Virus record (IMG/VR): IMGVR_UViG_3300009180_000080
Location: 1 to 42,121 of that record
Origin: a virus
DNA length: 42,121 nt
Reading direction: 5' to 3' (one strand)
Positions 1-30,015 of this stretch are shown piece by piece. The notes under the pieces were generated by a model. The model had not been told where the DNA came from. It saw nothing but the letters and a program-made list of their open reading frames with translations, and searched no databases. Position 1 is the first letter of the stretch, and each line of letters begins with the position of its first letter. A program made the translations under genes and the position numbers.

Positions 1-360
1 AATACTAGTTGTATACATGTCATTAGCTCCACCATACACAAAACAATAGTCAATTTTATTATTTAATTTAAGATGTGCTTGTTCTAACATCCAATAAGTT
101 GTTTTACCTAATATTGATACATTTATCATATTAAAACCAACCTTAGTACTTAAGACTTTTTGCCAACCATTTATGTGATTGCTGGTATGTGAATCACCTA
201 TAAATAATGCTGTTTTATTTTTAACATTAAGTATTATTGGAGTATCAACTACAGTGGAATCTGTTTGTGATTGAGTAGGTGTTGGAGTTGTAGCCGAAAC
301 TACAACCCAACCTAAACCTAAACTTAAAACAATTAATATTAAACCGTCTTTTAATCTCAT
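1..360 (-). CDS. SGNH/GDSL-type hydrolase, exported or membrane-anchored (C-terminus outside window)
   Basis: The first 120 residues are visible; the gene runs off the left edge. A hydrophobic stretch at residues 7-23 looks like a signal peptide or membrane anchor and is followed by a Thr/Pro/Gln-rich linker. The sequence LFIGDSHTS (residues 52-60) matches block I of SGNH hydrolases, with Ser57 as likely nucleophile; Gly85 fits block II and GGAND (110-114) fits block III with its oxyanion Asn. The block V Asp-His pair should lie off the window. SGNH enzymes are esterases or deacetylases, so an action on acylated surface glycan is possible but is inference. Its ATG overlaps the stop of the secreted-protein gene upstream (ATGA), so the two are probably co-translated. 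The ORF is open to base 1. Confidence 0.72.
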   Translation of the reverse strand, partial: MRLKDGLILIVLSLGLGWVVVSATTPTPTQSQTDSTVVDTPIILNVKNKTALFIGDSHTSNHINGWQKVLSTKVGFNMINVSILGKTTYWMLEQAHLKLNNKIDYCFVYGGANDMYTTSI

Positions 361-1514
361 TTCAACTTAACTACTTTTTGGTTTTTACCATTACTATAAC
401 GCACAATATACACTTTATCTGGTTCCATGTAATCAACTTGTCTACCTAACATATCATAGTAACCAATTACTTTTAAATCTTCTTCTCTAACAATGTTCTT
501 AACTGAAGTTTTATTACATTTTTCAATTGTAATTCGTCTCATTATAAATGTGTCTTGACCATTACATTCATTGTACCATTGAGCTATAACTAAATAACGA
601 GTATCTTTAAATGGAAAGTTATATTTCAATACACGAGCACTTTTTTCTGGTCCTTGTATTTTAAGTAAATCATTATCACTAAAGTTATAATAATTGATTA
701 GTTGTTGATCGCTCATTGAATCCCATTGTCTTTGAGTCAGTGAATCTAATTCCCAACCTCTGTAAATGTACTGATAATATCCCCAACAAGTATCTGTTTT
801 ACTAGTTGTACCTAATGTCATTTTAGCTGTTATACTATCATTACATGTATTAGTTGAACTGGATAATTTATAAGGATATTTACATTGATTGAAATAAGCA
901 ATATTAATTTCTCTAACTAATGCTGTATCACAAATTTCACATCGATTTCTAATTTTCAAATATACATTGTATTTACCTTTTTCACTAAATACAATGTCAA
1001 CTTTACCATTAAAACTGGACATTGTATCAATTTGTTTTGTTTGTTGAGTGTAAACAATATACACATAATCAATACAAGTATCGTCTAAATTAATACCACC
1101 TAAAGTAAATCGATATTGATTTCTAACATTCTGTTGTGTTAGAGTAACTTTAGACCAATCACATTTAATTGTAGTTGGAAAACAAGTTACATTAATTGTG
1201 TCTACAAATACAGTGTCATCACCATTACATTTATTCATAATTAACACAGTAGCATAGTATTTACCTTTTGAAGGAAATGTTATGTTGTATGTACTACTAC
1301 CATTTTGTCTACGTAATAATACTTGTGAAGAGACAGTTGTAATTTCTACAAAACGATATGACATACAGTTTGTATCTGACACTCCATTTAGTTTAAATGT
1401 ATATTCATTACATTTATTTGTTGAAGAAAGTCCTACTTTACTCCAATCTGTTTTTCTAGCGTAACTGGTCGTTACTGATATCATCAGCATTAGACCTAAT
1501 ATAAATTTTCTCAT
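357..1514 (-). CDS. Secreted protein with three Cys-rich Ig/PKD-like repeats and a type IX secretion (T9SS) sorting domain
   Basis: 385 residues. Residues 1-19 form a clear signal peptide ending in TSYA. Three related segments of about 95-110 residues follow, each with paired cysteines. The first two open with DWSKV and all three end near a Cys-Asn-x-x-D-T-type strand, the pattern expected of PKD/Ig-like beta domains. The last 45 residues or so contain YYDMLGRQV, then VYIVRYSNGK and a basic KVVKLK end. This matches the type A C-terminal sorting domain of Bacteroidota T9SS cargo (typical pattern vYdllGrxv...GiYivr...kkvvk). The inferred fate is export through Sec and then T9SS to the host surface, or a virion protein with that fold. 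The gene follows the 74-residue gene by 1 nt and is coupled by ATGA to the SGNH gene. Confidence 0.7.
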   Translation of the reverse strand: MRKFILGLMLMISVTTSYARKTDWSKVGLSSTNKCNEYTFKLNGVSDTNCMSYRFVEITTVSSQVLLRRQNGSSTYNITFPSKGKYYATVLIMNKCNGDDTVFVDTINVTCFPTTIKCDWSKVTLTQQNVRNQYRFTLGGINLDDTCIDYVYIVYTQQTKQIDTMSSFNGKVDIVFSEKGKYNVYLKIRNRCEICDTALVREINIAYFNQCKYPYKLSSSTNTCNDSITAKMTLGTTSKTDTCWGYYQYIYRGWELDSLTQRQWDSMSDQQLINYYNFSDNDLLKIQGPEKSARVLKYNFPFKDTRYLVIAQWYNECNGQDTFIMRRITIEKCNKTSVKNIVREEDLKVIGYYDMLGRQVDYMEPDKVYIVRYSNGKNQKVVKLK

Positions 1515-11450: not shown

Positions 11451-11855
11451 TTATTCTTCACCGGATTGAGTTTCTTCTGTGTCATCTGTAACCTGTTTTT
11501 CTTTTTGTTTTGTTCCAATTAAATCACTCATTACCCACTGTGATAATGAATCTAATGGAACAATAAAACCTATTGCTGTGAATTTATCTTTTAAGTCCTT
11601 GTCACGATCAATAACAATATCGTATTGGGAAAATTTCTTTTGTAAAAAGGTGGCTAATTGGTTTCCAACATCATTCAAACGAGTACCATCCACTTGAGTA
11701 CTGTCCTTAGGAATAAATTGAATTTTAACGCCAACCTTTGTAGGATTTTTATTTACATCAAACTTTACTGACCAATCAACACCACCAAATTTAGTTGAAT
11801 ATCTTACTGGTCCAGTAATGTTTGAAACTTCTAGTATAGTGTTTAAATTAATCAT
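11451..11855 (-). CDS. Hypothetical protein with class 2 promoter motif
   Basis: 134 residues, beta-rich (FGGVDWSVKFDVN, VGVKIQFIPKD), then an amphipathic helix (VGNQLATFLQKKFSQYDIVI) and an acidic tail ending TQSGEE. No family recognised. It overlaps the end of the glycosyltransferase gene by 8 nt. It has ATATTTAT at 11861-11868, exactly 5 nt before the ATG, so it can be transcribed independently of the sugar island. Confidence 0.7.
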   Translation of the reverse strand: MINLNTILEVSNITGPVRYSTKFGGVDWSVKFDVNKNPTKVGVKIQFIPKDSTQVDGTRLNDVGNQLATFLQKKFSQYDIVIDRDKDLKDKFTAIGFIVPLDSLSQWVMSDLIGTKQKEKQVTDDTEETQSGEE

Positions 11856-12909
11856 TTGTGATAAATATGAGTTCTTTAGAACGATCTGCGAAAGAATTAA
11901 TAGTTATTTTAAAATTATCAATTTCATAAACTCCAGTGTCTGCTGTATCTGCTACTATTTCATTTAATTGACTAATTAATGACCAATTATTAGGTTGTTG
12001 TAAATCAAACTCAACTATAATGTCAAATTCGTTAGAATTTGTTGGGTTTACTTCATTAAACCAATCATCTAATGGACTTGGTTGATAATTAGAAATAATT
12101 GCGCATTTACGGTAAACAGGTGTGAGTATTGGATGTTGATTAGAGTCATTTTTAATCCACGAACCCCATTTTTTAATATAATATTGTTTTGCTTTTTCTT
12201 CAGCTATTTTAAAATAATCATCATTTACACCTATTTTTTCACTCCATCTGTGTCCTCTACATGTTAAATGATAAACAAAAGCATCTCTACTTTGAATTAA
12301 TTCATAACCTGCTAACAACCATCTTTGAAAGATGTCACTGTCTTCATATGGGAATGGAGCAAAACCCCAATCATGACCTCCAATTCTTTGGAAATCGTCT
12401 TTATAAATTACCCATGGGGCAAACATGCCTTTAGTAGTTTCATTATTATGAATAGGTTGAATTTCATTAACATAATTTTCAAATGCTTCAATATTTAAAT
12501 CATCAAAGTCTAATCCAAAGTTTTGAATAATTTTTTCAGGACCTGGTGGATGTAAAGGTGGTTCAATTCTAGTTCCACATACTACTTTACCTGGTCTTAA
12601 ATGTTTAATAGTATTTTCAACATAATTAGGACCCATAATCATATCAGCATGCATAATACCTACAATATCATTAGTAGCCATTTGAATACCTAAATCATAC
12701 AATACTGTATGGCCGTCACGAGTTGGACTTTGATAAATTTTTACATTTCTGTCTAATGATGCTATTTTCAACATCCACCCCCAAGTATCATCTGTGGAAG
12801 CATCATCTAATAAAACAATTTCCACTTCAGGAGCGTGTTTTTTAATTGATTGATAAGCATTTTTTAAATGCCTAAGATTATTGTGGGATGGTATTACTAT
12901 TGAAATCAT
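11848..12909 (-). CDS. Family 2 glycosyltransferase
   Basis: 353 residues. The GT-A N-terminus reads SIVIPSHNNLRHLKNAYQSI, then IVLLDDASTDDTW for the nucleotide-sugar pocket and MHADM as the metal-binding DxD-type motif. GHDWGFAPFPYEDSDIFQRW supplies the ED catalytic-base motif of GT2 enzymes. About 100 extra C-terminal residues are not recognised. Last gene of the sugar island; it overlaps the preceding GT2 gene by 32 nt. Confidence 0.88.
   Translation of the reverse strand: MISIVIPSHNNLRHLKNAYQSIKKHAPEVEIVLLDDASTDDTWGWMLKIASLDRNVKIYQSPTRDGHTVLYDLGIQMATNDIVGIMHADMIMGPNYVENTIKHLRPGKVVCGTRIEPPLHPPGPEKIIQNFGLDFDDLNIEAFENYVNEIQPIHNNETTKGMFAPWVIYKDDFQRIGGHDWGFAPFPYEDSDIFQRWLLAGYELIQSRDAFVYHLTCRGHRWSEKIGVNDDYFKIAEEKAKQYYIKKWGSWIKNDSNQHPILTPVYRKCAIISNYQPSPLDDWFNEVNPTNSNEFDIIVEFDLQQPNNWSLISQLNEIVADTADTGVYEIDNFKITINSFADRSKELIFITND
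11861..11868 (-). promoter_or_regulatory. Class 2 start-site motif ATATTTAT
   Basis: ATATTTAT followed by 5 nt and the ATG at 11855. It lies inside the 3' coding end of the glycosyltransferase gene. The same motif at the same spacing precedes four other genes. Confidence 0.5.
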
Positions 12910-13621
12910 AATTTTGTCCGTATTGTCTTAAATCATAGTATAACAAAGAATACTCACTTTTACCAAAATAAGAATTCATATTTGTTTCAGCATTTCTACA
13001 AAATTCATTAACACCAATATTTATTTTATTTTCTTTAAATGTTAATGAATTCATATGAGTAATAGTATGGTTGTCACTTACTATAGTTTTAAATCCATAT
13101 TTTTCACCTACACAACCAGCATAAAAATCTAATCCCCATCCATAAATTAATTCATCTGGAAAATGTTGTATTTTTTCAGCTATGTCTCTTCTAATTAGAG
13201 GAGCTTGAAAATCAATCCATCTAACTGGTCTTAATCCACCTCCCCAATTCCACATCTGTTTCCAAAAACACTGTTCCATTGAAGCATTAATTACAGTCGC
13301 TGAGTAAATACTAGCGTCTGATTCTTTAGCTTCACGTAATGATGTTGTTAAGAATGAAGGACCATGAAATACTAAGTCATTATTTAAAAAATATAAATAC
13401 TCATGATCTGTGTTTAAAAAGTATTCTAAAGCCGCATTCAACCCACCACCAAAGAAAATATTTTCTTCTAATCTATGGGTAGTTGATTGAGCTAAAGATT
13501 CTTTAGATCCATTGTCTATTACCATTAATTCACATTTAGTGAATAATGGATCTCGTTTTAATTGATTTACTAAATTATCTGTCCATTGAGGCAGATTATG
13601 ATTAAGTGTTGCTACTAACAT
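12878..13621 (-). CDS. Family 2 glycosyltransferase
   Basis: 247 residues. The start (MLVATLNHNLPQWTDNLVNQ), CELMVIDNGSKES, the loop NIFFGGGLNAALEYF and YFLNNDLVF (DxD-like NND) match rhamnosyltransferase-like GT2 proteins. GWGLDFYAGCVGEKYGF is the acceptor-side region. The transferred sugar cannot be told. It starts 2 nt after the upstream stop. Confidence 0.85.
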   Translation of the reverse strand: MLVATLNHNLPQWTDNLVNQLKRDPLFTKCELMVIDNGSKESLAQSTTHRLEENIFFGGGLNAALEYFLNTDHEYLYFLNNDLVFHGPSFLTTSLREAKESDASIYSATVINASMEQCFWKQMWNWGGGLRPVRWIDFQAPLIRRDIAEKIQHFPDELIYGWGLDFYAGCVGEKYGFKTIVSDNHTITHMNSLTFKENKINIGVNEFCRNAETNMNSYFGKSEYSLLYYDLRQYGQNYDFNSNTIPQ

Positions 13622-13623
13622 GT

Positions 13624-14427
13624 TTAAAATTTAAAAGGTGAATTCCAATTAGACTGCATAACTATTCCAAAATAATTTTGTTTAAAATGTTCCTCAGTAT
13701 AACCTAATTGTTTAAAATACTCATATTGTGGTTTGAAATGCATAAATTTAAAAATAGGTTCTATAGGTATTATATCTATTGTTTTATTATATAATAACCA
13801 TTCTCCATACCAAGTAAATTCTGAAGAACAAAAATCAATTAAATTAGAAAAATTTAAAGAATTTGATTGTAAATAAATTTCATCTAAACTTTTCCATACT
13901 TTACTAGACCAAATAACAGGACCTGGACCAAAGTCAAATACTCTTCCTTGTCTTCCAAAAACTTCCATTATTTTATGTCTTTCATCACAATAACTTTGAT
14001 ATGGATCAAATCCTAATACTTCTTTACCGTATCTACTAGTCCAATCAAACAAATCTTTTTGTTCATGTAACACAGTATAAGGAGTAGTATCATCATACAT
14101 AAAGTCAGAGTATTTAAACGGTTTAATAAAATACGAATCTGAGTCTAACATTACGTAATTTTCACATAGATTTAATCTCCAAAAATTACTTTTAACAGTT
14201 TGTTGTGTTTTCCATGTTTGTTGTGAGATGTCAAATATATCTTCATCTGCTATTATATTAACATAATTCACATCAACATTATTTTTAAATAATTCTAATT
14301 CAGACTTAGGAACAGATATGTAGTATGGTATATTATCTACATTATTATTCTTAATTGATTCAATAGATACTTTTAATCTATCTAAGTCTTTAGAATAAGT
14401 TTTAGTATATAAAACTATTTTATCCAT
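13624..14427 (-). CDS. Glycosyltransferase-like protein (resembles the DUF6492 group)
   Basis: 267 residues from the ATG at 14427; a longer start at 14448 is possible. KIVLYTKTYSKDLDRLKVSI and YVMLDSDSYFIKPF (DSDS as metal site) indicate a GT-A fold. FGPGPVIWSSKVW and EFTWYGEWLL resemble the DUF6492 group found in polysaccharide loci; that match is from memory and tentative. The start overlaps the FkbM gene stop by 8 nt. Confidence 0.72.
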   Translation of the reverse strand: MDKIVLYTKTYSKDLDRLKVSIESIKNNNVDNIPYYISVPKSELELFKNNVDVNYVNIIADEDIFDISQQTWKTQQTVKSNFWRLNLCENYVMLDSDSYFIKPFKYSDFMYDDTTPYTVLHEQKDLFDWTSRYGKEVLGFDPYQSYCDERHKIMEVFGRQGRVFDFGPGPVIWSSKVWKSLDEIYLQSNSLNFSNLIDFCSSEFTWYGEWLLYNKTIDIIPIEPIFKFMHFKPQYEYFKQLGYTEEHFKQNYFGIVMQSNWNSPFKF

Positions 14428-15040
14428 TTCTTTCAAATAACAAATCAACTTGATTTAAAGTAACTCCTTCATTTAAAAAACTTAAATCTACTATGTCTTT
14501 TAATTTAAAGTTATGTTCATTCATAAATTGAAAAACATCACCAATTAAACATCCGCCTTTATTATATTCAAAGACACTACATTCAATTAATATGTATTTA
14601 GTTCTACTAACTGCTTTTAAAGCACCATTTAATATTTTTATTTCAGATCCTTGAGTATCTAATTTTAATAAATCAATATCTCTATTATCTAATAAATTAT
14701 CTAATGTGTTTGAAATTAAGTCAGTTTTTACTAAATATTGTTCATCAAAATCTGATGTATTTTCTTTATAAATTGAATTTCCAGAACTTAACAACCATTT
14801 ATCTGTCATATAATAAGTATGTTTGTCTCCTACATTATCTGTAAGTAGTCCTATAGTATATGGATAACCAGTTTGTTTTAGTATTTCTTCAGCATTTGGA
14901 TTAGCTTCAAACATATGTATGTCAGTTTGAGGCCATAGTGATTTACATGTTTTAGCAAAATCACCAATGTGTGCTCCAACATCAACAATAAATTTTGGAT
15001 TAAATCCATCGTAGTTTAAAATTTGTAATCTATCTAACAT
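14420..15040 (-). CDS. FkbM-family SAM-dependent methyltransferase
   Basis: 206 residues. FIVDVGAHIGDFAKTC is the SAM-binding motif I, IHMFEANPNAEEIL is motif II, and DLLKLDTQGSEIKILNGA is the typical FkbM motif with the conserved D-x-E-G/Q-S-E region. FkbM enzymes O-methylate sugars or secondary metabolites. In this island a glycan substrate is the natural inference. It overlaps the upstream GT8-like gene by 11 nt. Confidence 0.88.
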   Translation of the reverse strand: MLDRLQILNYDGFNPKFIVDVGAHIGDFAKTCKSLWPQTDIHMFEANPNAEEILKQTGYPYTIGLLTDNVGDKHTYYMTDKWLLSSGNSIYKENTSDFDEQYLVKTDLISNTLDNLLDNRDIDLLKLDTQGSEIKILNGALKAVSRTKYILIECSVFEYNKGGCLIGDVFQFMNEHNFKLKDIVDLSFLNEGVTLNQVDLLFERNG

Positions 15041-15800
15041 TTGTATAAAAATTATCTATTAAAAAAGTTGACGCTAAATTTCTGAAATTCTCATCTCCAG
15101 TAATATGAAAAATATTAATACAGTCTCTAATATTGTCAACAGCGTTTATTTCTCTTCCTAAATCATCAATGTAATTAGCAAAAAAGTTTTTACAATGCCA
15201 ATCAAGTACATTATAACTTCGGTCTAATAAAACTACATCAAAATTTTGTTTTCTTAATTCAAAATTCAATAAAGTTTGATCATCAGTTAAATTTGGTGAT
15301 TTGTTTATTGAACACCATTCTGATGATTTTTCTTTATAAAATGTTTGTATTTCTTTAAATACAGGTTCATGTATTTTATTATAAATAATAAAACCAGAAT
15401 TAAAATAATTATCCCAATTTACTGTTATATCATTGTACCAATGTTTTTGAACCATTTTTGATGATCTATTTAAAGATGGACCAAAACCATTATCTAATAC
15501 AGCACCAAATTTATTATTGGTTTTACTAAAAAAATCACCACAATGTGGTAAAGGAAATGTATCATAGTCTACTTGTGCTACTTGATCAAATTCAATATTA
15601 TTGTATAATAATATGTCTAATGTCCACATTTTTTGCATTTGTGGAGTTATTGATTCAAAATCTGCTATAGGTTCATTTAATTCTAAAAACTTACAATTAT
15701 TTTGTTCACACCATGATTTCCATGCTTTTTTACAATTTGTTACAAATAACGGCTCAGGTCCTGTTTTTCTGTAATTAGGCATTACTACTAAATTAGTCAT
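15030..15800 (-). CDS. GT8/glycogenin-like glycosyltransferase
   Basis: 256 residues. QVDYDTFPLP provides a DxD metal motif, YFNSGFIIYN is the conserved FN-x-G segment of GT8-like enzymes, and DDQTLLNFEL is the DQ-x-x-LN motif. IFHITGDENF near the end fits the H-x-x-G region. Retaining transferase of unknown donor. It overlaps the next upstream gene by 8 nt. Confidence 0.78.
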   Translation of the reverse strand: MTNLVVMPNYRKTGPEPLFVTNCKKAWKSWCEQNNCKFLELNEPIADFESITPQMQKMWTLDILLYNNIEFDQVAQVDYDTFPLPHCGDFFSKTNNKFGAVLDNGFGPSLNRSSKMVQKHWYNDITVNWDNYFNSGFIIYNKIHEPVFKEIQTFYKEKSSEWCSINKSPNLTDDQTLLNFELRKQNFDVVLLDRSYNVLDWHCKNFFANYIDDLGREINAVDNIRDCINIFHITGDENFRNLASTFLIDNFYTNVR

Positions 15801-16659
15801 TTATTATATAATTAAATAATTTTTCTGTTGTTAAATAATTTCTAGTATAATCTATTAATTGATTTGTATAATTTATTAAATCATCTTCATTTAATTCACT
15901 TATATTAGAATTACATTTTATAATTAAATCTTTAGGAAATGTAAACATAGTATACTCTGGACATTCATTTAAATTAGGAAAAAATGGAATACAACCATTC
16001 ATTAAAATCTCATAATGTCTTAAACAATCCCATCCACCTTTTTTAAATGTAACACCAAACCATGATTTTTGATAACCTTCAAAATAACTTGTTTCATCAT
16101 CATAAATGTATGTTGATAAATCACCTGGTATTATTGTAGCGTAGTCTTGTGATTTATTTGGCATTTTATGTACTATTAAATATTTTGGAATAGCAAAATA
16201 TATAGGTTTAATAAAATCAGTTGGTTTAAATACTAGTTCACGTTTATAATATGTTCCATATTGTAAAACATCTTCTCTAATATTTTGATCATCTTCTCCA
16301 TCTACTAAAATAATGTCTTTTCTACTATAGAATTTAACAACATCTTCAATAAAATCCAAACATCTTGTAAAAGAACCATATATTATTTTATCAAAAAAAT
16401 GATTTTCTATTTTTTCTTTTATATTACTACGGTCTACATCTATATTATCAAATTGACCATATAATGTAAATCCTCTTCCATAGCTTCTTCCATTTTCAGG
16501 CACACGTGTATTCCAATATTGGTTTTTATCATTTTTATACATATACCATAATTTATTATAGTCTATAAAATTTTCACCTAATACTGAACGACCACCATGG
16601 AATATCATATCACTTTGAAAGTCAGGTAAGTCTGCTTTTGATATAAAAAGTACTCTCAT
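15793..16659 (-). CDS. GT-B / exostosin-like glycosyltransferase
   Basis: 288 residues. The start MRVLFISKADLPDFQSD suits a GT-B N-terminal domain. The segment WDCLRHYEILMNGCIPFF closely resembles the R-x-x-E-x-x-x-x-G-x-I-P motif of exostosin and similar GT-B enzymes, which binds the donor. Middle regions are not recognised. Coupled to the neighbours by 4-8 nt overlaps. Confidence 0.68.
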   Translation of the reverse strand: MRVLFISKADLPDFQSDMIFHGGRSVLGENFIDYNKLWYMYKNDKNQYWNTRVPENGRSYGRGFTLYGQFDNIDVDRSNIKEKIENHFFDKIIYGSFTRCLDFIEDVVKFYSRKDIILVDGEDDQNIREDVLQYGTYYKRELVFKPTDFIKPIYFAIPKYLIVHKMPNKSQDYATIIPGDLSTYIYDDETSYFEGYQKSWFGVTFKKGGWDCLRHYEILMNGCIPFFPNLNECPEYTMFTFPKDLIIKCNSNISELNEDDLINYTNQLIDYTRNYLTTEKLFNYIIND

Positions 16660-17366
16660 TTTATTAATTCGTCAAGTGTTAAATAATTAGAATCTAAAGT
16701 TGAGTATTTATTAGGCATATGAAATATAATAGACCGTGAAATTAAATCTTCATAAATATACTTAGGTATACCTTGTTGATGACCTGGCCATTTTGGAGAA
16801 TAATAAAAATTACTACATGAGTCTTCTAATGAAGTGCCATAATTTATATTTTTATTTTTTAGAATATTTAATTGATTATTGTTCACTATCCATCCACCTT
16901 GATGTACATTGTCTACTTCTAACTTATTATTAATTATTTTACCTATAGAATGCACATTAGCTTTATGCATATCTATTAAATAAATGTTGTTATTAGTATT
17001 TTCATATCTTACAAAACCATGAATATAAACATCAGGTGTTTCTGAATTTAGTTTATTTTGACCTTCAATAAATGCTAATACATTATCTTCAGTTATTAAA
17101 GTATCATTTTCTTGATGCATATATAAATCATACTTATTGACATTATTGAAAGCATAATTTCTAGGTTCTATAGACAATGCTGTTCCAATATTATCATTGT
17201 ATTTTATAATATCTACATTTACTGGTCCATTATATATAAAATCTTCAGTAGTAAATAAAACCACATCAACTTCAATTTTAGTAAATTTAGAGTATTCTTC
17301 TAATATTTTTTCTAAAAAGTGATTTTGGTGAGTCCCATAATTTGGAATCAAACTTAATAATTTCAT
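16656..17366 (-). CDS. Putative GT-A glycosyltransferase
   Basis: 236 residues. MKLLSLIPNYGTHQNHFLEK and YMHQENDTLITEDN (an END/DxD-like site) suggest a GT-A fold with a non-standard metal site. HGFVRYENTNNNIYLIDMH and VHQGGWIVNN fill the acceptor side. It is assigned partly by its place in the island. ATGA overlaps on both sides. Confidence 0.58.
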   Translation of the reverse strand: MKLLSLIPNYGTHQNHFLEKILEEYSKFTKIEVDVVLFTTEDFIYNGPVNVDIIKYNDNIGTALSIEPRNYAFNNVNKYDLYMHQENDTLITEDNVLAFIEGQNKLNSETPDVYIHGFVRYENTNNNIYLIDMHKANVHSIGKIINNKLEVDNVHQGGWIVNNNQLNILKNKNINYGTSLEDSCSNFYYSPKWPGHQQGIPKYIYEDLISRSIIFHMPNKYSTLDSNYLTLDELIK

Positions 17367-18040
17367 ACTTTTATAATATTATGATTTTGTTTAAAAAATA
17401 CATTTTCTGGAAAACCTTGACCAGCATAAATTGTTGATCTTACACCTAACATATCTAATACTATAGGTAAAGAACTACTTCCTAAATGTCGTTCATCAGC
17501 ATGATACGCCTTATAAACATTTTCTTCAAAACTTGAGTTTGTGTCTAATTCAACAATATCAAAAGGCATCATTGATTTCCATTGTCCCCAAAATCCATTT
17601 AATTGGTGGGCTACAGGAATAGTAACTTTTGAATATATAATAGTATCTGGAAAATTAATTAGTTTTAATGTCATTTCACGATCATAATCTAAATTATTTA
17701 ATTTAGCATAATACTCTGACATGTAAACATCTATACTAGTTCCAGGTACAAAACCAAAATTATAATATTTTCCTTCTATACCAAAATCAGCTGGATTGAA
17801 TCTCCAATTATTTAAGTCCCAAGCATCTGATCCTATATCTATTAAAGTTACTTTTTCACAAAACTCTTGATGTTCTAAGAATTTTTTAACTTTATCATAC
17901 ATGTAATAATTCTGTGAAACTACAAAATGTATTTTTTCATTATGTGTTTTATAGTACCATGACGCTACAGGCCATAACATAAAAAAATCTCCAATCCAAC
18001 TAACGTTTGTAAAAATCATATTATAAAATAAGCTTGCCAA
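17363..18040 (-). CDS. Putative GT9-like (heptosyltransferase-type) glycosyltransferase
   Basis: 225 residues. FTNVSWIGDFFMLWPVASWY has the GD-x-x-x-x-P layout of the GT9 N-terminus. ERHLGSSSLPIVLDMLGVRS resembles its donor-site D-S-x-x-x-H-x-A-x-x-x-G region in degenerate form. It is shorter than typical GT9 enzymes (300-350), so it could be a reduced or inactive version. Start overlaps the TylF-like gene by 25 nt. Confidence 0.5.
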   Translation of the reverse strand: MASLFYNMIFTNVSWIGDFFMLWPVASWYYKTHNEKIHFVVSQNYYMYDKVKKFLEHQEFCEKVTLIDIGSDAWDLNNWRFNPADFGIEGKYYNFGFVPGTSIDVYMSEYYAKLNNLDYDREMTLKLINFPDTIIYSKVTIPVAHQLNGFWGQWKSMMPFDIVELDTNSSFEENVYKAYHADERHLGSSSLPIVLDMLGVRSTIYAGQGFPENVFFKQNHNIIKV

Positions 18041-18597
18041 TCTTCACCATACATTAATGTCAGCCCATGTTTATTTACAAATTCATCAACAGCTGTTTTA
18101 GCTCCTAAACATGAACCAGCATTATAATCATCACATAAAATAATTCCACCTTTTACCATTCTAGGATAGAAAAATTCAAGTCCTAATTTATAACTTGAAT
18201 AAATGTCTACATCTAGATGTACAAACTTAAACATTTTATCTTTAACGATATTTGAGTTTGTTTTAGGAAATTCTCCTTTTAATATAGTAACATTAGAATT
18301 ATTTATAAATAAATTTTTAACTTCTCCAAAAGAAGTATCATAAAAATCTCCCTCAATATGAATATTATCATATTCACTTACTTCAGGCATTCCTTCAAAT
18401 GTATCAAAACCATAAATTTGATCATTAGGAAATTCATTAACTAATTTTAATAATGATCCTCCTTTATATACCCCTACCTCAGCAATACATCCTTTTAACT
18501 CACTAGTCATTTTTGATATATTAACTAGTGAAGTTAAAGCATGTTCTTGTAATAGTGTTCCTCCAATTGGATTTGAACTTATTTGTCTTTTATCCAT
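18016..18597 (-). CDS. TylF/MycF-type O-methyltransferase
   Basis: 193 residues. CIAEVGVYKGGSLLKLVNEF (motif I), IYGFDTFEGMPEVSEYD, FVHLDVDIYSSYKLGLEFFY and GGIILCDDYNAGSCLGAKTA match the macrocin O-methyltransferase family, including the Asp cluster that binds Mg2+. Family members methylate hydroxyls on sugars. 6 nt separate it from the preceding methyltransferase. Confidence 0.9.
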   Translation of the reverse strand: MDKRQISSNPIGGTLLQEHALTSLVNISKMTSELKGCIAEVGVYKGGSLLKLVNEFPNDQIYGFDTFEGMPEVSEYDNIHIEGDFYDTSFGEVKNLFINNSNVTILKGEFPKTNSNIVKDKMFKFVHLDVDIYSSYKLGLEFFYPRMVKGGIILCDDYNAGSCLGAKTAVDEFVNKHGLTLMYGEDWQAYFII

Positions 18598-18603
18598 AAA
18601 CTA

Positions 18604-19095
18604 TTATTTTTCAGCCATTACCATAAAAGCATTGTACAAATCTACTCCAGATACAAAAATATTTTTATATCCTTTATTTATTAAATAGTCTTTAATAATA
18701 GTAGGACTAAAAATATGAACATGTTTTCTGTTATTCCATGGTCTCCAATATTCTTGAGAATAATCAGGTAGATATAAAAATAAAGTTCCATTTGGTTTTA
18801 ATGTTTCATACCAATAATCCATAGTTCCTACCCAATCAACTATATGTTCTAAACAATGGCTAGAAAAAATATAATCAACATTTTGTTTAGGTAAATTAGT
18901 AGCATGGTAACCATCATCAAAACTTAAATCAATAGGTGTTGAACCTTCAAATGACCATTCTGGTTTCATACATCCAATATCATATCCTTCTCCTTTACAT
19001 ACTTGTTGAGCAAACGGAAAAGCAAATCTAGCCGCGAAACCTTCAGTTTGAAATTTTGGATACAACATTCCATTAAAATCAATAGTATTTACCAT
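18604..19095 (-). CDS. Class I SAM-dependent methyltransferase
   Basis: 163 residues. GYDIGCMKPEWSFEGSTPID is a shortened motif I/II region. VDYIFSSHCLEHIVDWVGTM and LKPNGTLFLYLPDYSQEYW are motifs IV-V of the Methyltransf_11 type. The first 30 residues replace the usual N-terminal helix. Substrate unknown, probably a sugar, from context. 2 nt after the upstream stop. Confidence 0.78.
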   Translation of the reverse strand: MVNTIDFNGMLYPKFQTEGFAARFAFPFAQQVCKGEGYDIGCMKPEWSFEGSTPIDLSFDDGYHATNLPKQNVDYIFSSHCLEHIVDWVGTMDYWYETLKPNGTLFLYLPDYSQEYWRPWNNRKHVHIFSPTIIKDYLINKGYKNIFVSGVDLYNAFMVMAEK

Positions 19096-19097
19096 AT

Positions 19098-19685
19098 TTA
19101 TTTAATTGGTGTAATAATAATATAACCTTGATCTTTATAAGATAATTCAATATTATGAGTGTCACCAAAACAATCATAAACAAAATCAATTCCATCTCCA
19201 CCTAATACATTTCTTTCAGTCCAATTTCCACCTTCAAATGGTCCATCAATGTATATTCTCAAATCATCAATAATAAAAACATCTTTTTTACAGTTTCTAA
19301 CTGAAATTAAAGTTCTTAATTCTTTTTCTAGTGGTATTCTAATATTGTCTACTTTTTCTGTATCATACCCACCACCAGTTGATGTTCCTGGAAAATGAGC
19401 ATCTAAGAAAAATAATGTAGGTTTTTTATCAAGTTCAGCCACTGGCCCTTTAATAAAATCTTCACTTTCCATATTGTAAAGTGTTATACCTTTTTCTTCA
19501 TTAATAAATTGTGTGCAATACGTATCATATGTTTCTTTATGAACTTCTGTTGATAGCCACTTTTTAAAAGGAAGTCCAAGGCTGTAAGAAAAAGACCATC
19601 CTGGTCCTGTTCCTGTTTCTACAAAATTAACCAAATTATATTTGGTAATGTAATCTTGTACGTTGTGATGTTGTAATAATCCCAT
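19098..19685 (-). CDS. Rossmann-fold methyltransferase-like protein
   Basis: 195 residues. NFVETGTGPGWSFSYSLGLP resembles motif I. The strands WLSTEVHKETYDT, TLFFLDAHFPGTSTGGGYDT and DVFIIDDLRIYIDGPFEGGN follow the order of class I methyltransferases, with Asp-rich loops like TylF. It could alternatively be a non-methylating Rossmann protein. Part of the island; 12 nt after the upstream stop. Confidence 0.6.
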   Translation of the reverse strand: MGLLQHHNVQDYITKYNLVNFVETGTGPGWSFSYSLGLPFKKWLSTEVHKETYDTYCTQFINEEKGITLYNMESEDFIKGPVAELDKKPTLFFLDAHFPGTSTGGGYDTEKVDNIRIPLEKELRTLISVRNCKKDVFIIDDLRIYIDGPFEGGNWTERNVLGGDGIDFVYDCFGDTHNIELSYKDQGYIIITPIK

Positions 19686-19697
19686 GTTGTTTATTTA

Positions 19698-20555
19698 TTA
19701 ATTAATATCGTTTATCATTCCATATTCATCAAATATTGGCATTCCTCCCCATTTGTTGAAAAATTTTAATCTATTTATTTCTTCAGATTTTATTTGTCTT
19801 TCTGAAGATTTACCATTATTTTCTTCTAATCTATGAGAACCTCTAGCTCCAAAATGAAATACCATTGATTTTGAAGTTAACACAAATTTATAACCTTCGT
19901 TTTTCATTCGTAAAAATAAATCCATGTCTTCCCATGATGTTGGACTAAATTGTGGATCATTACCTCCAATTTTATCCCAATCAGATTTACGAATCAAACC
20001 ACTCACACCTTCAGCTTTAGGAATAGTAAAATTGTTACTTCTAACAAATTGATCCATCCAATCTTCTAGTATTTCTTTATCAAAATCATCATAGTGAGAA
20101 CCAAAAATATTTTTAGGAACAATAATTGTTCCAGGACGTGATTGACCATTTCCAAACATATCTGGTTCTATTCTATGACTAAATACCCAAGTTGGTTCCT
20201 TATGTTTTTGAATTTCTTCTAAACAAGCTAAATCCCAATTATTACTTACATAAAAATCAGAATGTAAAAACATAATATATTCTGTTGTTACTTTTTCAGC
20301 ACAAAAATTCATTCCACCACCAATTCCTTTAGATGAATTATTTTTGTCAATATAATACTCATATTTGTATTTTAATTTATTATCACGCAACCATTGATCT
20401 GTTCCGTCTGTACAATTTTCAGCATGAATGATAAATGGTGCTTTGTCAAAAAAACTATTTTTTCTAACTGATTCTACAGCTAGTTTTAAGTACTCTAAAT
20501 TGTTAAAAGTACTAATACAAAATGTGAGTGGATTAGATTGTGTCGTAAAAGGCAT
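19698..20555 (-). CDS. Family 2 glycosyltransferase
   Basis: 285 residues. TFCISTFNNLEYLKLAVESV, HAENCTDGTDQW, KGIGGGMNFCAEKVTTEYIM and FLHSDFYVSNNWD (HSD as the DxD variant) are a GT2 core. GGNDPQFSPTSWEDMDLFLR contains the ED catalytic motif. Its start overlaps the upstream GT2 gene by 23 nt. Confidence 0.87.
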   Translation of the reverse strand: MPFTTQSNPLTFCISTFNNLEYLKLAVESVRKNSFFDKAPFIIHAENCTDGTDQWLRDNKLKYKYEYYIDKNNSSKGIGGGMNFCAEKVTTEYIMFLHSDFYVSNNWDLACLEEIQKHKEPTWVFSHRIEPDMFGNGQSRPGTIIVPKNIFGSHYDDFDKEILEDWMDQFVRSNNFTIPKAEGVSGLIRKSDWDKIGGNDPQFSPTSWEDMDLFLRMKNEGYKFVLTSKSMVFHFGARGSHRLEENNGKSSERQIKSEEINRLKFFNKWGGMPIFDEYGMINDIN

Positions 20556-21150
20556 TTTGTTTTTCTTGTTTAGTTATTGTTTTATGGTGACCTAAAGCAT
20601 AAATGTCTTCAGCTGGTAGTAAAGCCATATTTGTATGACCTTCTAATTTTTCATGTACTTTACCAATCCAATTAATTTCTGGTTTATTTTTACAAATTCT
20701 ATATTGATAATCAGGAAAATTAATTCTATTGTGTTCATCAACTCTCCATCCCCATTGTCCAATATGTTTTTGAGTTAAACCAGCTACTGTATTAATACGT
20801 GGTATTAAATAACAATCAATTGTTGGATTAAGTTCTATCACTTGACGAATTAAATCAATTTGATCTTTATTTACCTCTTCATCAGCATCAATAAAGAAAA
20901 TATAATCTTTTTTACAATGTTTTTTTAAATTATTTTTAAAAGTAGAAAAGTCACCATTTAATTCACTAAATACTCTTTCAATTCTTTCAAAATTACTTAT
21001 TAAATCTAACATTTCTTGGGACGCGTTGGGAGTATCAATTTGGATAATGATTTCATCACTATCAACTTTACATTTAATGAGTTGATCTATTAAACGTTTT
21101 AGTTCCGCTGTTTCATTGCAAGCGGTAATAGCAAAACTAATGTTTATCAT
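20533..21150 (-). CDS. Family 2 glycosyltransferase (WaaE/KdtX-like)
   Basis: 205 residues. ISFAITACNETAELKRLIDQ, EIIIQIDTPNAS and YIFFIDADEEV (DAD metal motif) give a GT-A core. YQYRICKNKPEINWIGKVHE is the R-(I/L)-(C/F)...W-x-G-x-V-H-E motif seen in WaaE-type lipopolysaccharide core glucosyltransferases. It ends soon after, shorter than that family. Coupled by ATGA to the zinc-ribbon gene. Confidence 0.85.
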   Translation of the reverse strand: MINISFAITACNETAELKRLIDQLIKCKVDSDEIIIQIDTPNASQEMLDLISNFERIERVFSELNGDFSTFKNNLKKHCKKDYIFFIDADEEVNKDQIDLIRQVIELNPTIDCYLIPRINTVAGLTQKHIGQWGWRVDEHNRINFPDYQYRICKNKPEINWIGKVHEKLEGHTNMALLPAEDIYALGHHKTITKQEKQNAFYDTI

Positions 21151-21590
21151 ACAGCATTAATATAAGAAATTGCTTCAAGAAAACCAACTTTTCCAAAATT
21201 TCTTTTAGTTGTTGTGTCTGATTTATGTTTAGGTATTTCTTTATCTTGCTCAACATAAATTTTCTTTTCTTCTTCTGTTAATACTCTATTTTTGATTGCT
21301 GACCAAGTCCAATTGTCTTTAGTTGATCCATCAATGAATACAATACCTTCTTCATTTTCAATAACAAGTGGATACCATATTTTACCTTCAGTGTCTATTG
21401 ATTTTAGGTCTTTGTAAAGTTCGGGCATTGTTTCTTCAAACTTTTCTACATCATACTCACCGTCTTTGATAAAATCATTAGCGGTAAATCCACAACTTGG
21501 ACAGTTATATGCCCAAGCTGTTTCATTTAGTGGAGTTGCGTAACACATTTCACTTTCACAGTGACTACATTTTACTAATTTATCTTCCAT
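21147..21590 (-). CDS. Zinc-ribbon protein, unknown function
   Basis: 147 residues. CSHCESEMCY and NCPSCGFTAND supply a CxxC...CxxC zinc ribbon at residues 8-36. The rest (WYPLVIENEEGIVFIDGSTK) is a beta-rich domain of unknown function. Similar zinc-ribbon proteins occur beside T4-like phage structural and sugar genes, but no role is known to me. It overlaps neighbours by 4 nt and 1 nt. Confidence 0.72.
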   Translation of the reverse strand: MEDKLVKCSHCESEMCYATPLNETAWAYNCPSCGFTANDFIKDGEYDVEKFEETMPELYKDLKSIDTEGKIWYPLVIENEEGIVFIDGSTKDNWTWSAIKNRVLTEEEKKIYVEQDKEIPKHKSDTTTKRNFGKVGFLEAISYINAV

Positions 21591-22888
21591 TATATTTTCT
21601 TTAATTTAGGTAATTGTGGTAATTGTGGTAACACTAATTTAGGTTGTTCTTTAACATACTGTTTATAATACTCACCTAATTTTTCTGTCATTTTTTCAAA
21701 ACTAAAATTAGTTTTACTGTAAAATGATTGACGATTTGCTTTATCTATGTATTTTTTATAATTAGCATGGATGTCAACTAATAATTGTCCAGCTTGAACA
21801 TAATCAGCAGTATACCATGCGCTTTCAGCTAAAATAATGTTAGGAACAACAGCTGATGGGTGAACTTGAGTTAATTTACCTCCAATTAAATTTGTAAATT
21901 CGGGATTTAAAAAATCTATTTGACCTGACCATCCTGAACATATAATTGGTTTTTTAGTTACACTGAATTCTAATAATGGACGACCAAATCCTTCACCTTT
22001 AGTTAAATTAATCATTGCTTTAATTTTTAGATGGTTATAAAGATAATTAATTTCTTTTTCTTCCAAGTCACCATGAATTAAATAAATGTTAGGCAATGTA
22101 CCTTTTACTGTTTTTCTAACTTCATTGATTTTATTTAAAATACTATTTTTATCTAAAATACTTCCACCAGCACTTGATGTTTTTAAAATTAAACAAGGAG
22201 CATTTTTCTTATTTTTAAATGTTTCTAAAAATACTTTAATTGTCATCCCTACATTTTTACGATCTTCACCTAAAGCCCCACCTAACCAATGGCCAACAAA
22301 CAAATACGCGAAATTCTCGGGAATTTCATCGAGATACGTTACTAAATCATTTTCAGGTATGTCTTTATCATCCATATGGAAGTATGTGTTTAAATCAACA
22401 CCTTCAAAAATAACTTCAATTGGTTTTTCAATTTTGATATGTCTAACAACATTACCTTGTTGGTCACGTTGTTCTGCTTGAGTTTGTAAAAATACTTGTT
22501 TTGAATGTTCTGATGAAATTAAATTCAAATCCATTCGATTACAACCATCAATCCAAGATGGATCACACAATGTTGTTTCAATACCGGCTGTTACACCAAT
22601 ATTGTATTTTCCTACAGGTTGAAATTCATTTGGAATTGTAATTTGCATCCAAACATCAGGCTGTTGTGTTAATTGATTTCCTTCAATTAAATGTTTTTTC
22701 ATCCAATTCCATTCTTCATGATCATCTAAATAACCATAAGGTGTGTTTCCCCAACGTTGAGATAAAATCCATACATCCCACTCATCTTTTTTTGCTTCTA
22801 TTGTTGCTTTAACAAAATCTCTTGCTCTAGCACCGTATCCTGAGTATGTTTCTACAGGACAACTTATTACAACATATTGTTTACTCAT
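21590..22888 (-). CDS. Group 1 (GT4-like, GT-B) glycosyltransferase
   Basis: 432 residues. VVISCPVETYSGYGARARDF is a GT-B N-terminus with a Gly-rich acceptor loop. GVTAGIETTLCDPSWIDGCN follows. The C-terminal domain has AYLFVGHWLGGALGEDRKNV, LTKGEGFGRPLLEFSVTKKP (the E-x7-E donor motif of GT4) and PIICSGWSGQIDFLN. A proline/leucine repeat (LPQLPQLPKLKK) ends the protein. 3 nt after the second GT4 gene. Confidence 0.88.
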   Translation of the reverse strand: MSKQYVVISCPVETYSGYGARARDFVKATIEAKKDEWDVWILSQRWGNTPYGYLDDHEEWNWMKKHLIEGNQLTQQPDVWMQITIPNEFQPVGKYNIGVTAGIETTLCDPSWIDGCNRMDLNLISSEHSKQVFLQTQAEQRDQQGNVVRHIKIEKPIEVIFEGVDLNTYFHMDDKDIPENDLVTYLDEIPENFAYLFVGHWLGGALGEDRKNVGMTIKVFLETFKNKKNAPCLILKTSSAGGSILDKNSILNKINEVRKTVKGTLPNIYLIHGDLEEKEINYLYNHLKIKAMINLTKGEGFGRPLLEFSVTKKPIICSGWSGQIDFLNPEFTNLIGGKLTQVHPSAVVPNIILAESAWYTADYVQAGQLLVDIHANYKKYIDKANRQSFYSKTNFSFEKMTEKLGEYYKQYVKEQPKLVLPQLPQLPKLKKI

Positions 22889-22891
22889 AAC

Positions 22892-24337
22892 TTAATATAC
22901 TAATTTGTGTCTTAATTTTTTAACTGGTAGTTCTTCTACTTTGGTGAATGTAAATGGTTTTTTAGGTGTCCAATTTTCTAATGTATCTTCAATTCCTTCA
23001 ATAATATTTTTACTCATATTATCAGCAGTCATCATAGCTTCAGTTGATGTAACCCACTCACGAGCTAATTCACCTCTACGTTTTCTTTCATCTGCTCCCA
23101 TTTCATAACATTCTACTAAACGTTTAGCTACATCTCTGAAGTCACAACGATCATCAAAAATATATGGAGTAATTGGAGAACCTTGTATACTCATATTTGT
23201 AGGCCAAACAGGCAATGCCCATTCACCACATTTTTTATATGTTCCAAAATGATTTGAACAAAATTCTGAGTCAAATTTAATCCAATTACCATCTTCATCT
23301 TCAAAACGCATTTGGTCTTGCATACCACCAGTTGAGTTTGCAATAATCATTTTACCACACATCATAGCTTCTGTTAAACTTAAACCCCATCCTTCATTAG
23401 ATGAAATTAAAGCAGTTACATCACACATATTATATAGTCTTCTCATATCATCTACTGATACTAATTTATCCCAGTAAATAATATTCATATAATCTTCACT
23501 ACATAATAAATCTTCTACAGCTTTCATGTCTGTTCCATTGTCATCCACAACTTGAGTGTGCATTAAAAAAGCACATTTTTTAGCTTTTTCTTCACCAATT
23601 TGTTCACAAAATAACCTGTAGGCAGCCATTAAATCAGGTAATGATTTACGACGTATATTACGAGCGTTATAATAAACAACATACTCATATTCTTTACCTC
23701 CAAAAACTTCACTTTTTAAACGTTTGAATTCAATGTAATCTGGATCTGTAGGTGTAATAGGTCTAAAATTATTTTCATTAATACCATGAGGTGTGTATTT
23801 AATAATTTTGTTGTGAGCTTTGTCACCCAATACAATTTTATTAATATTCTCTGTTTGTTTAGAGATAGCTAATAATCCGTCACAAGAATCATAGTAATCT
23901 TCATTATACATTGGTGCTGGATAATCATCCCAAATGTTTAAATAAATCATTGGTATTTTACGACGAACTTCATTTTCAATGTCAAACAACCAAATCCAAT
24001 AACGTGGATCTGTAAAAAACATTAACGCATCTGGCTTTTCGTGTTTTAAAAGATCTCTAATTAGTTGAGCATCCCCATATCCATTAATAGGCAATAATTC
24101 AATTTTAGCATCACTAATGTCTAATAATTTATTAGTTTCTGGTGATAAATCAAACTTTTTACCTTGATCTGGGTGATTGATAGCTCCTCCAATATTTAAC
24201 CAATTAAATCGATGAGCTGATCCTATTACAAATTCACGAGCCATAGTAGCAATGCCACTATGCATTCTCATGTCATCTGATAATAAGATAATTTTTTTAC
24301 GTTTGTTTTGTGGAATATAACCTTCTTTTGTATTCAT
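22892..24337 (-). CDS. Group 1 (GT4) glycosyltransferase
   Basis: 481 residues. IILLSDDMRMHSGIATMARE is the N-terminal GT-B domain, GLLAISKQTENINK and YTPHGINENNFRP are typical GT4 segments, and LISSNEGWGLSLTEAMMCGK carries the E-x7-E donor-binding motif, followed by MIIANSTGGMQDQM. First gene of the sugar island in transcription order; the ribbon-helix-helix gene lies 9 nt upstream. Confidence 0.9.
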   Translation of the reverse strand: MNTKEGYIPQNKRKKIILLSDDMRMHSGIATMAREFVIGSAHRFNWLNIGGAINHPDQGKKFDLSPETNKLLDISDAKIELLPINGYGDAQLIRDLLKHEKPDALMFFTDPRYWIWLFDIENEVRRKIPMIYLNIWDDYPAPMYNEDYYDSCDGLLAISKQTENINKIVLGDKAHNKIIKYTPHGINENNFRPITPTDPDYIEFKRLKSEVFGGKEYEYVVYYNARNIRRKSLPDLMAAYRLFCEQIGEEKAKKCAFLMHTQVVDDNGTDMKAVEDLLCSEDYMNIIYWDKLVSVDDMRRLYNMCDVTALISSNEGWGLSLTEAMMCGKMIIANSTGGMQDQMRFEDEDGNWIKFDSEFCSNHFGTYKKCGEWALPVWPTNMSIQGSPITPYIFDDRCDFRDVAKRLVECYEMGADERKRRGELAREWVTSTEAMMTADNMSKNIIEGIEDTLENWTPKKPFTFTKVEELPVKKLRHKLVY

Positions 24338-28866: not shown

Positions 28867-28882
28867 CTTTTAATTTTTTAAG

Positions 28883-28957
28883 TGGACCCTACAGGACTTG
28901 AACCTGTGACCTTCGCATTATGAGTGCGCTGCTACTAACCAACTGAGCTAAAGGTCC
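28883..28957 (-). tRNA. tRNA with CAT anticodon (Met or Ile2)
   Basis: 75 nt. Acceptor GGACCTT pairs with AGGGTCC, the anticodon loop is CTCATAA on a GCGCA/TGCG stem, and the T-arm is ACAGG-TTCAAGT-CCTGT. No CCA is encoded. The overall sequence resembles bacterial tRNA-Ile2, in which C34 is changed to lysidine, as well as elongator tRNA-Met, so the amino acid is left open. The D-loop GGTTAGTAGC carries an insertion relative to the usual form. Confidence 0.9.
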
Positions 28958-28965
28958 ATTATTAG

Positions 28966-29037
28966 TACTCCTAACGGGATTCGAACCCGTGACTTGTCCG
29001 TGAAAGGGACATGACTTAACCGCTTGTCGATAGGAGC
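28966..29037 (-). tRNA. tRNA-Glu (TTC)
   Basis: 72 nt. Acceptor GCTCCTA/TAGGAGT (one G-T pair), anticodon loop CTTTCAC on a TGTCC/GGACA stem, T-arm ACGGG-TTCGAAT-CCCGT. No encoded CCA. Confidence 0.93.
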
Positions 29038-29041
29038 AAAT

Positions 29042-29143
29042 AAAGTAAGATGGTGAGGTGTTAGGGGCTTTGACCCACTCGGCTTTCCTCTCCACCCATA
29101 GCCTTAACTAGTATTGGATGACGGCTACATACCACCTTACTTT
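29042..29143 (-). ncRNA. Unassigned structured element in the tRNA cluster
   Basis: This fills the 107-nt gap between tRNA-Glu and tRNA-Gln, the size of a long-arm tRNA plus spacers. The ends pair over 13 bp (29042-29054 with 29131-29143, one G-T). Inside are TAGCC/GGCTA (29099-29103 with 29123-29127) and a T-arm-like AGTGG-GTCAAAG-CCCCT. The segment GGAGAGGAAAGCCGAGTGGG resembles the 5' end of tRNA-Ser. I could not fold a regular tRNA. It may be a degenerate Ser/Leu/Tyr-type tRNA or another small RNA. Confidence 0.4.
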
Positions 29144-29144
29144 G

Positions 29145-29215
29145 TTACCTCCCAAGGATTCGAACCTCAATTAATTGGACCAAAACCAATTGTCCTGCCG
29201 TTAGACGAGGAGGTA
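29145..29215 (-). tRNA. tRNA-Gln (TTG)
   Basis: 71 nt. Acceptor TACCTCC/GGAGGTA with the U1-A72 pair typical of tRNA-Gln, anticodon loop TTTTGGT on an AATTGG/CCAATT stem, T-arm GAGG-TTCGAAT-CCTT. It reads CAA, the preferred Gln codon of an AT-rich phage. The HNH gene stop lies only 3 nt upstream of its 5' end. Confidence 0.93.
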
Positions 29216-29217
29216 AT

Positions 29218-29853
29218 TTATTTTTTATCTTTATGTTTATACAAAATATCTTTTAATTCTGGAAAGTATTTTATTATAAATTTATCTGCTCTTTGTGGAT
29301 GAATACCTGTTACTTTTTCTACTTTTAATCTCCATCCTCGTTGAGTAAAATCAATTTCAGCTTTTATAATGTTATTAATTCTTTCAGTTAATTTTTTATT
29401 ATATTTTGATTCTTCTTTTTTTATTTTAGGTATTTCTATTTTATTGGTTTGACATATTTTTAATACTCTTTTATAGTTACCTCCTGAATTATCCATTCCT
29501 AGAGATACTAGTGTTTGATTTATATTTTTGTTATTTTTTAACGCTTCTATTATTTTTTCATCACTTATGTTTGTTTTTTGTTTTATACTTTTCTTTTTTC
29601 TAAATGTAGATGTTAATGAATGACAATTAGGACATAAAAATTCTAAATTTTCTTTTTTATTATTCCAATTATCTCCATCTTTATGTTCTATTTCTAATGT
29701 AATTTTTTCTCCCATCCATTCATTAATACCACATTTATTACATTTATATTCAAACACATTATTTAATATAATATATTTTCTTATAGAACTACCATATTGT
29801 AGTTTTATTTCTCCAGATAAAATTTTATCTATATTATTTTTAATATCTACCAT
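29218..29853 (-). CDS. HNH endonuclease inserted in the tRNA cluster
   Basis: 211 residues from the ATG at 29853; an upstream ATG at 29871 would read through the class 2 motif. YKCNKCGINEWMGEKI, LEIEHKDGDNWNN and LEFLCPNCHSLTSTFRKKKS make a complete HNH core with two zinc-binding CxxC pairs and catalytic His. The C-terminal half is Lys-rich and looks like a DNA-binding extension. It splits the tRNA array between tRNA-Gln and tRNA-Trp, in the manner of a mobile free-standing nuclease. Confidence 0.9.
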   Translation of the reverse strand: MVDIKNNIDKILSGEIKLQYGSSIRKYIILNNVFEYKCNKCGINEWMGEKITLEIEHKDGDNWNNKKENLEFLCPNCHSLTSTFRKKKSIKQKTNISDEKIIEALKNNKNINQTLVSLGMDNSGGNYKRVLKICQTNKIEIPKIKKEESKYNKKLTERINNIIKAEIDFTQRGWRLKVEKVTGIHPQRADKFIIKYFPELKDILYKHKDKK

Positions 29854-29858
29854 CAATA

Positions 29859-29866
29859 ATAAATAT
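29859..29866 (-). promoter_or_regulatory. Class 2 start-site motif ATATTTAT
   Basis: ATATTTAT, then TATTG, then the ATG of the HNH gene at 29853. It decides the start codon, since any earlier start would include it. Confidence 0.5.
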
Positions 29867-29892
29867 GTCAAAGATTATAAAAAACATTCGAG

Positions 29893-29967
29893 CAGGCATG
29901 GAGAGATTCGAACTCCCAACAAACCTGGTTTTGGAGACCAGTGCTCTACCAGTTGAGCTACACACCT
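29893..29967 (-). tRNA. tRNA-Trp (CCA)
   Basis: 75 nt. Acceptor AGGTGTG/CATGCCT (two G-T pairs) with discriminator G, typical of tRNA-Trp. Anticodon loop CTCCAAA on a CTGGT/ACCAG stem, T-arm GGGAG-TTCGAAT-CTCTC. The CCA anticodon reads UGG and is consistent with UGA acting as stop. Confidence 0.93.
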
Positions 29968-29975
29968 GTATATTT

Positions 29976-30015
29976 TGCGGAAGATGTAGGATTTGAACTT
30001 ACGTTACTATTCCGC
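29976..30015 (-). pseudogene. 40-nt tRNA-Gly-like relic (acceptor and T-arm only)
   Basis: The 5' GCGGAA pairs with 3' TTCCGC, as in bacterial tRNA-Gly. A T-arm GTAAG-TTCAAAT-CCTAC and the A discriminator follow the normal order. The D-arm, anticodon arm and variable loop are absent, so it cannot decode. It is either a deletion relic or a minihelix kept for another purpose. Confidence 0.6.

Follow-up and report, generated by a model that had tools for sequence, protein, structure and literature searches.

Do phages of Bacteroidota encode proteins that the type IX secretion system (T9SS) of their host sorts to the cell surface, and by what signal would such proteins be recognised? The question is raised by a gene near one end of the window, the 42,121-nt stretch of viral DNA analysed here. 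The preliminary description of this DNA had placed at positions 357–1514 an exported protein with three cysteine-paired Ig/PKD-like repeats and a C-terminal domain (CTD) of the kind that sorts T9SS type A cargo. The 385-aa ORF was confirmed, and it lies on the minus strand, which had been left unstated (Table 1). Judging from its homologues in 14 other phage records and from the purifying selection on its tail, the protein is more than a chance ORF.

Table 1. Positions of the repeat-protein gene, the parts of its product and the neighbouring genes in the window
Feature	Position	Strand	Evidence or remark
SGNH/GDSL hydrolase gene, N-terminal membrane or signal segment	1–360	−	cut by the window edge; PF13472 sub-threshold on the fragment
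Exported repeat protein gene, 385 aa	357–1514	−	ATG ORF; T9SS-like short C-terminal tail; homologues in 14 other phage records
Short C-terminal tail, residues 340–385, proposed compact T9SS sorting signal	360–497	−	selection; three strands; same tail on unrelated proteins; CTD profile match
Motif E equivalent QKVVKLK, C-terminal strand, conserved Lys	360–380	−	alignments
Motif D equivalent KVYIVRY (RgpB: GVYAVRI), usual Gly absent	396–416	−	alignments
Motif B equivalent YYDMLGRQV (RgpB: IFDMNGRRV)	435–461	−	alignments
Ig/PKD-like domain 3, residues 210–333, 5 Cys	516–887	−	PKD match in homologues L001/L002; AlphaFold2
Ig/PKD-like domain 2, residues 115–209, 4 Cys; domain common to homologues	888–1172	−	family HMM; AlphaFold2
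Ig/PKD-like domain 1, residues 20–112, 4 Cys	1179–1457	−	family HMM; AlphaFold2; sequence
Sec-type signal peptide, residues 1–19	1458–1514	−	n-, h- and c-regions and S-Y-A cleavage motif read from the sequence
Upstream small gene, 74 aa	1516–1740	−	same order as in phage record G018
Upstream gene, 164 aa	1744–2238	−	same order as in phage record G018

The Sec signal that had been claimed for the protein can be read directly as MRKFILGLMLMISVTTSYA, with cleavage before RK and without a lipobox, which is the form of signal peptide found on T9SS type A cargo. All 13 cysteines lie past it. AlphaFold2, run with seven aligned sequences, modelled three tandem beta-sandwiches followed by a three-stranded tail, with modest confidence (mean pLDDT 61, tail about 62–83). 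The Foldseek neighbours of this model are generic FnIII/Ig arrays and the homologue in L002 reaches the PKD cut-off, so that the three Cys-containing Ig/PKD-like domains are borne out. As the family HMM matches the window protein twice (residues 1–112 and 115–385), domains 1 and 2 are taken to be a duplication.

The C-terminal motifs that had been quoted exist in the protein; the standard sorting domain was not recovered. Neither PF18962 nor TIGR04183 matched the window protein, even at an E-value of 10, and neither has a match anywhere else in the 42,121-nt window. A Pfam search with the tail alone gave no sorting-domain match, and a PDB sequence search with it gave no match. In place of the seven-strand CTD that had been expected, AlphaFold2 models a tail of ~46 residues with three strands (residues 348–353, 370–374 and 380–384), and the window protein has neither the HMM score nor the seven-strand beta-sandwich by which T9SS type A cargo is recognised. 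Compared with that domain (PF18962/TIGR04183; RgpB CTD, 5HFS/5AG8, 8GLJ/8GLK), the phage tail has the same C-terminal position on a protein with a signal peptide, a similar motif B (YDMLGRQV versus FDMNGRRV in RgpB), the conserved Lys of motif E and an hhalign alignment that extends to the C-terminus. It differs in having 46 residues rather than about 75 and three predicted strands rather than seven, in lacking both the YPNP half of the CTD and the GxY Gly, and in falling below HMM detection.

CTDs of similar size have been described in Prevotella intermedia. These short CTDs, 40–55 aa long, have a single three-stranded sheet that bears motifs B, D and E; their cargo is cleaved and glycosylated, for some proteins by experiment (PMC11969387). 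The window tail resembles them in its length of 46 aa and in its three modelled strands, which form one sheet equivalent to strands 3, 6 and 7. Its motif B reads YDMLGR, with a Gly that is invariant in the family and is followed by a basic residue, R or K, and the Lys of motif E is invariant in an alignment of seven tails. The six residues DYMEPD separate YYDMLGRQV from KVYIVRY, which is within the 1–6 aa between motifs B and D of short CTDs when the motif boundaries are set by our reading of the published motifs. The difference lies in motif D, the GxY Gly of which is absolutely conserved in P. intermedia CTDs (PMC11969387). Where those bacterial proteins have GxY or GxN with an invariant Gly, the phage tails have KVY, QPY, VPY, EVL or similar, and a Gly near this position is present only in some tails of another tail-bearing family, described below. 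In RgpB, a change of the motif B Gly to Arg stops secretion, and in P. gingivalis the Lys of the C-terminal strand has also been reported as important or conserved (PMC11285876). The phage tail retains both of these residues and lacks the GxY Gly. To our knowledge, short CTDs have been documented in one species only.

When the tail family was compared by hhalign with phage CTDs aligned to solved CTDs from the PDB, the homologue in L003 being left out, a P-value of 9.4e-5 and a score of 24.8 were obtained. None of 200 column permutations reached this score (0/200; maximum 17.8). The two profiles align from motif B onwards as far as the C-terminus, interrupted once, by an 18-column gap that follows motif B and precedes motif D. 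Close spacing of these two motifs is the distinguishing mark of the P. intermedia short CTDs. An earlier hhalign comparison with seven close tails, which covered the motif B stretch only (P 0.0019), was superseded by this broader set of tails. For the window tail alone, the match to the CTD profile was weak (21/3000 shuffles); against a constructed short profile with the B–D segment removed the figure was 3/3000, for a profile built after the tail had been seen. A single-sequence Smith–Waterman comparison with the RgpB CTD was also weak (114/2000 shuffles) and was set aside. The bacterial CTDs used for comparison were taken from PDB chains because a second genome scan, with a phage GroEL as the query, returned mostly spirochaetes and no Bacteroidota.

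Scans of IMG/VR yielded homologues of the repeat protein in 14 other records (L001, L002, L003, L006, L007, L021, L124, L125, L154–L157, L168 and L173). Each has a signal peptide and between one and three body domains, and all end in the same tail except the homologue in L003, whose C-terminus is a complete sorting domain (PF18962 33.7 bits, cut-off 27; TIGR04183 30.4 bits, cut-off 23). This domain occupies the position of the tail, behind a body that shares 35% identity with the window protein (E-value 9e-13 in a single comparison). In both L003 and L001, the repeat-protein gene lies a few kilobases downstream of membrane-protein genes that look similar by eye, which is consistent with orthology. 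An AlphaFold model of the L003 protein was discarded, its CTD being poorly modelled because the remaining rows of the alignment had no CTD. In L157, a second exported protein is encoded near the repeat-protein gene (62–1051) and has a TIGR04183 domain of its own (25.8 bits, cut-off 23).

Against the homologues in L001, L006 and L021, the tail has a dN of 0.085–0.13 at a dS of 0.7–1.0, and the body has a dN of about 0.5 at a dS of 0.8–1.05. On these rates, the tail is evidently under strong purifying selection. As its dN is low at a similar dS, we conclude that the tail was not acquired recently and is not decaying; no other part of the protein is as constrained. Searches of cultured phages and plasmids by tblastn, with the repeat protein or its tail, returned nothing relevant. 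A scan of GTDB genomes with the repeat-protein family, using narrow search patterns, revealed no relative and no bacterium with a T9SS that uses this tail.

The tail also occurs on other phage proteins. Loci that have nothing but the tail in common were picked up when a divergent homologue was used for a scan, and a profile made only from the tails of this family found two further tail-bearing families among 2,238 phage ORFs. One consists of five proteins of 684–793 aa (E-values 1.5e-9 to 5e-7) and the other is represented by a 164-aa protein (4e-5), with the best non-member at 0.13. Every match is at the very C-terminal end of its protein, and the N-terminus of each of these proteins resembles a signal peptide. 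No significant similarity was found between the body of the repeat protein and those of the two other families, and the tails of the three families contain no sorting-domain HMM match at cut-off. Given the same tail on unrelated exported proteins, these phages probably put proteins of their own outside the infected cell. The 684–793-aa proteins contain GCTD...NY...DNGSC repeats (L158 1030–3135, L159 1081–3135, L160 784–3165, L166 1434–3659 and L167 318–2549) and adjoin a peptidase-like gene; no Pfam/NCBIfam sorting domain was recognised in those tested.

A second cargo of related phages, an exported cohesin-domain protein of roughly 630 aa, has a full CTD that scores 41–54 bits against PF18962 in 15/15 records, all of them retrieved by a scan with this cargo. 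The isolate Flavobacterium phage vB_FspM_immuto (NC_055915), the host of which is Flavobacterium sp. LMO8, has a split homologue, gp014/gp015, and the CTD of gp015 scores 37.8 bits. Capsid, portal and terminase (58–66% identity) relate immuto to the 180-kb phage G018; GroEL, glycosyltransferases and lysis genes relate it to the window. Its exported cohesin-domain cargo has a full, standard CTD, and no repeat-protein homologue was found in it. No virion proteomics was found in the immuto publication examined. In G018, the four-gene order around the repeat protein is the same as in the window, and the repeat-protein gene is at ~15 kb, the cohesin cargo at ~59 kb and the virion genes at about 99–161 kb. 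The second cargo with its full CTD, the Flavobacterium host of immuto and the kinship with G018 point to T9SS-bearing Bacteroidota as the probable hosts.

The cohesin/dockerin-like cargo is a single fused protein with a full T9SS CTD in environmental phages (L013 2083–3984; L023 11598–13422) and is split into two signal-peptide genes in immuto. In G018, the stretch from holin/endolysin to GroEL contains a block corresponding to gp013–gp019 together with the cohesin-CTD cargo. The window phage lacks this block at the same place (31566–33998, minus strand), and there is no cohesin-CTD gene in this syntenic slot between holin and GroEL. Some 12 kb of the window (11848–24337, minus strand) is occupied by genes resembling those for glycosyltransferases and methyltransferases, suggesting that the phage may synthesise or remodel glycans. 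Two of these are 57–58% identical to glycosyltransferases of immuto.

The coupling of the repeat-protein gene to a downstream SGNH hydrolase gene, also part of the preliminary description, holds: the SGNH start overlaps the repeat-protein stop by four bases (ATGA, 357–360). The first 120 of about 222 codons of the SGNH gene are inside the window, and complete homologues exceed the PF13472 cut-off. An SGNH gene is adjacent or close to the repeat-protein gene in 7/15 records, and is thus a frequent but not an obligate neighbour. A partnership between the two products, and a surface function for the repeat protein, are speculation.

In our view, the repeat protein is probably T9SS cargo encoded by the phage, sorted by a compact signal of the 'short CTD' type that escapes the HMMs. 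The original proposal of a T9SS-type signal on a phage protein stands in so far as the L003 homologue, the portability of the tail, the profile comparison, the full-CTD cargo of related phages and of immuto, and the distance of the gene from the virion genes support it, and falls in respect of the HMM match and the seven strands. The protein would be made by the phage inside an infected Bacteroidota cell and, given its signal peptide, exported by Sec to the periplasm, where its Cys-containing Ig/PKD-like domains would fold and form disulfides. The three-stranded tail, with motifs B, E and a Gly-less D, would then be taken up by the host translocon and a PorV-type shuttle, and the protein would be released from or anchored on the outer surface. 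There it would probably act in adhesion or cover receptors and glycans, possibly together with the SGNH esterase where one is present. The purpose of such surface delivery may be receptor masking, superinfection exclusion or adhesion. The wider proposition, that large phages of Bacteroidota carry a compact, portable T9SS tag on several unrelated exported proteins with which they remodel the exterior of the infected cell, and that short CTDs are far commoner than documented, seems to us evenly balanced between true and false.

Against the sorting-signal reading stand the silence of the HMMs, the missing GxY Gly, the weak single-sequence tests, the lack of a PDB match for the tail, the modest AlphaFold2 confidence, the documentation of short CTDs in one species only and the fact that no bacterial relative was seen in the genome scan. 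Silent HMMs, the lost Gly and the absent YPNP half, together with the empty holin–GroEL slot of the window phage, would also suit a protein that is exported but stays periplasmic or membrane-associated, with a tail that is a CTD-descended mini-domain no longer driving secretion and serving instead in dimerisation, anchoring or substrate binding. We regard this as unlikely, since the tail is much better conserved than the body and is a C-terminal module on unrelated exported proteins, as expected of a sorting tag, and since it retains the motif B Gly and the C-terminal Lys, two residues for which importance or conservation has been reported in P. gingivalis (PMC11285876).

The preliminary description had offered a structural module of the virion as its alternative, in which case the Ig-like repeats would decorate the virion or its tail fibres. 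Phage virions often carry Ig-like domains, some phage tail-tip proteins are among the generic FnIII/Ig Foldseek matches, and the tail-bearing family member in L158 is encoded beside small repeat proteins with a possible structural role. However, signal-peptide N-termini are found in all of the homologues compared, the domains are Cys-rich, and in G018 the gene is distant from the capsid, portal, sheath and baseplate block (15 kb versus about 99–161 kb). The repeat protein was found neither to be homologous to virion genes nor to lie among them, having no PHROG structural match and no match in 50,697 phage records, and a virion component is therefore highly unlikely. Convergence could also explain the likeness of the tail to CTDs, as a short beta-hairpin with a basic C-terminus on a protein that leaves by another export route or on lysis. 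The marginal scores of individual tails against CTD profiles and the lack of a Pfam or PDB match for the tail are in keeping with this, but the family-level hhalign P-value and its permutation control, the preserved motif order and C-terminal position, and the presence of a real CTD at the same place in L003 make convergence the least probable of the explanations considered.

Phage-encoded T9SS cargo has been proposed before. Cryophage encodes such cargo, and hijacking of host secretion, possibly for superinfection exclusion, was suggested (Bellas et al. 2020; PMC7468147), while sorting domains were also reported in genes of crAss-like BACON phages (de Jonge et al. 2019; PMC6949934). With these two precedents, 'little-described' was a fitting term for the strategy. 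As here, the sorting domains are encoded by phage genes, but those of Cryophage and the crAss-like BACON phages are standard annotated domains, whereas the signal described here is short, unannotated and present on several unrelated phage families. No short, degenerate and portable phage sorting tag was found in the literature searched, and the portable short signal appears to be new.

If our reading is correct, this is a testable and recurrent case of phages using the T9SS to display their own proteins on the host surface, which has so far been inferred only from scattered annotations. T9SS signals could then be far shorter and more degenerate than TIGR04183 and PF18962 detect, and present inventories of cargo in phages, and perhaps in bacteria, would be incomplete. 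The tail alignment can be converted to an HMM for finding such signals, and immuto and its Flavobacterium host provide a laboratory handle on phage T9SS cargo.

Elsewhere in the window, a family B DNA polymerase (38927–42031, minus strand) is split into two ORFs, 40334–42031 and 38927–39811. A GIY-YIG endonuclease-like ORF (39786–40310) splits it just before the DTDS catalytic motif, and no Rfam intron was found. The polymerase of L154 is intact across the junction, where just three residues lie between the two aligned stretches. The window also contains six tRNA genes (Met, Glu, Gln, Trp, Met and Thr; 28882–30813, minus strand), and an HNH endonuclease-like ORF (29218–29871) lies among them.
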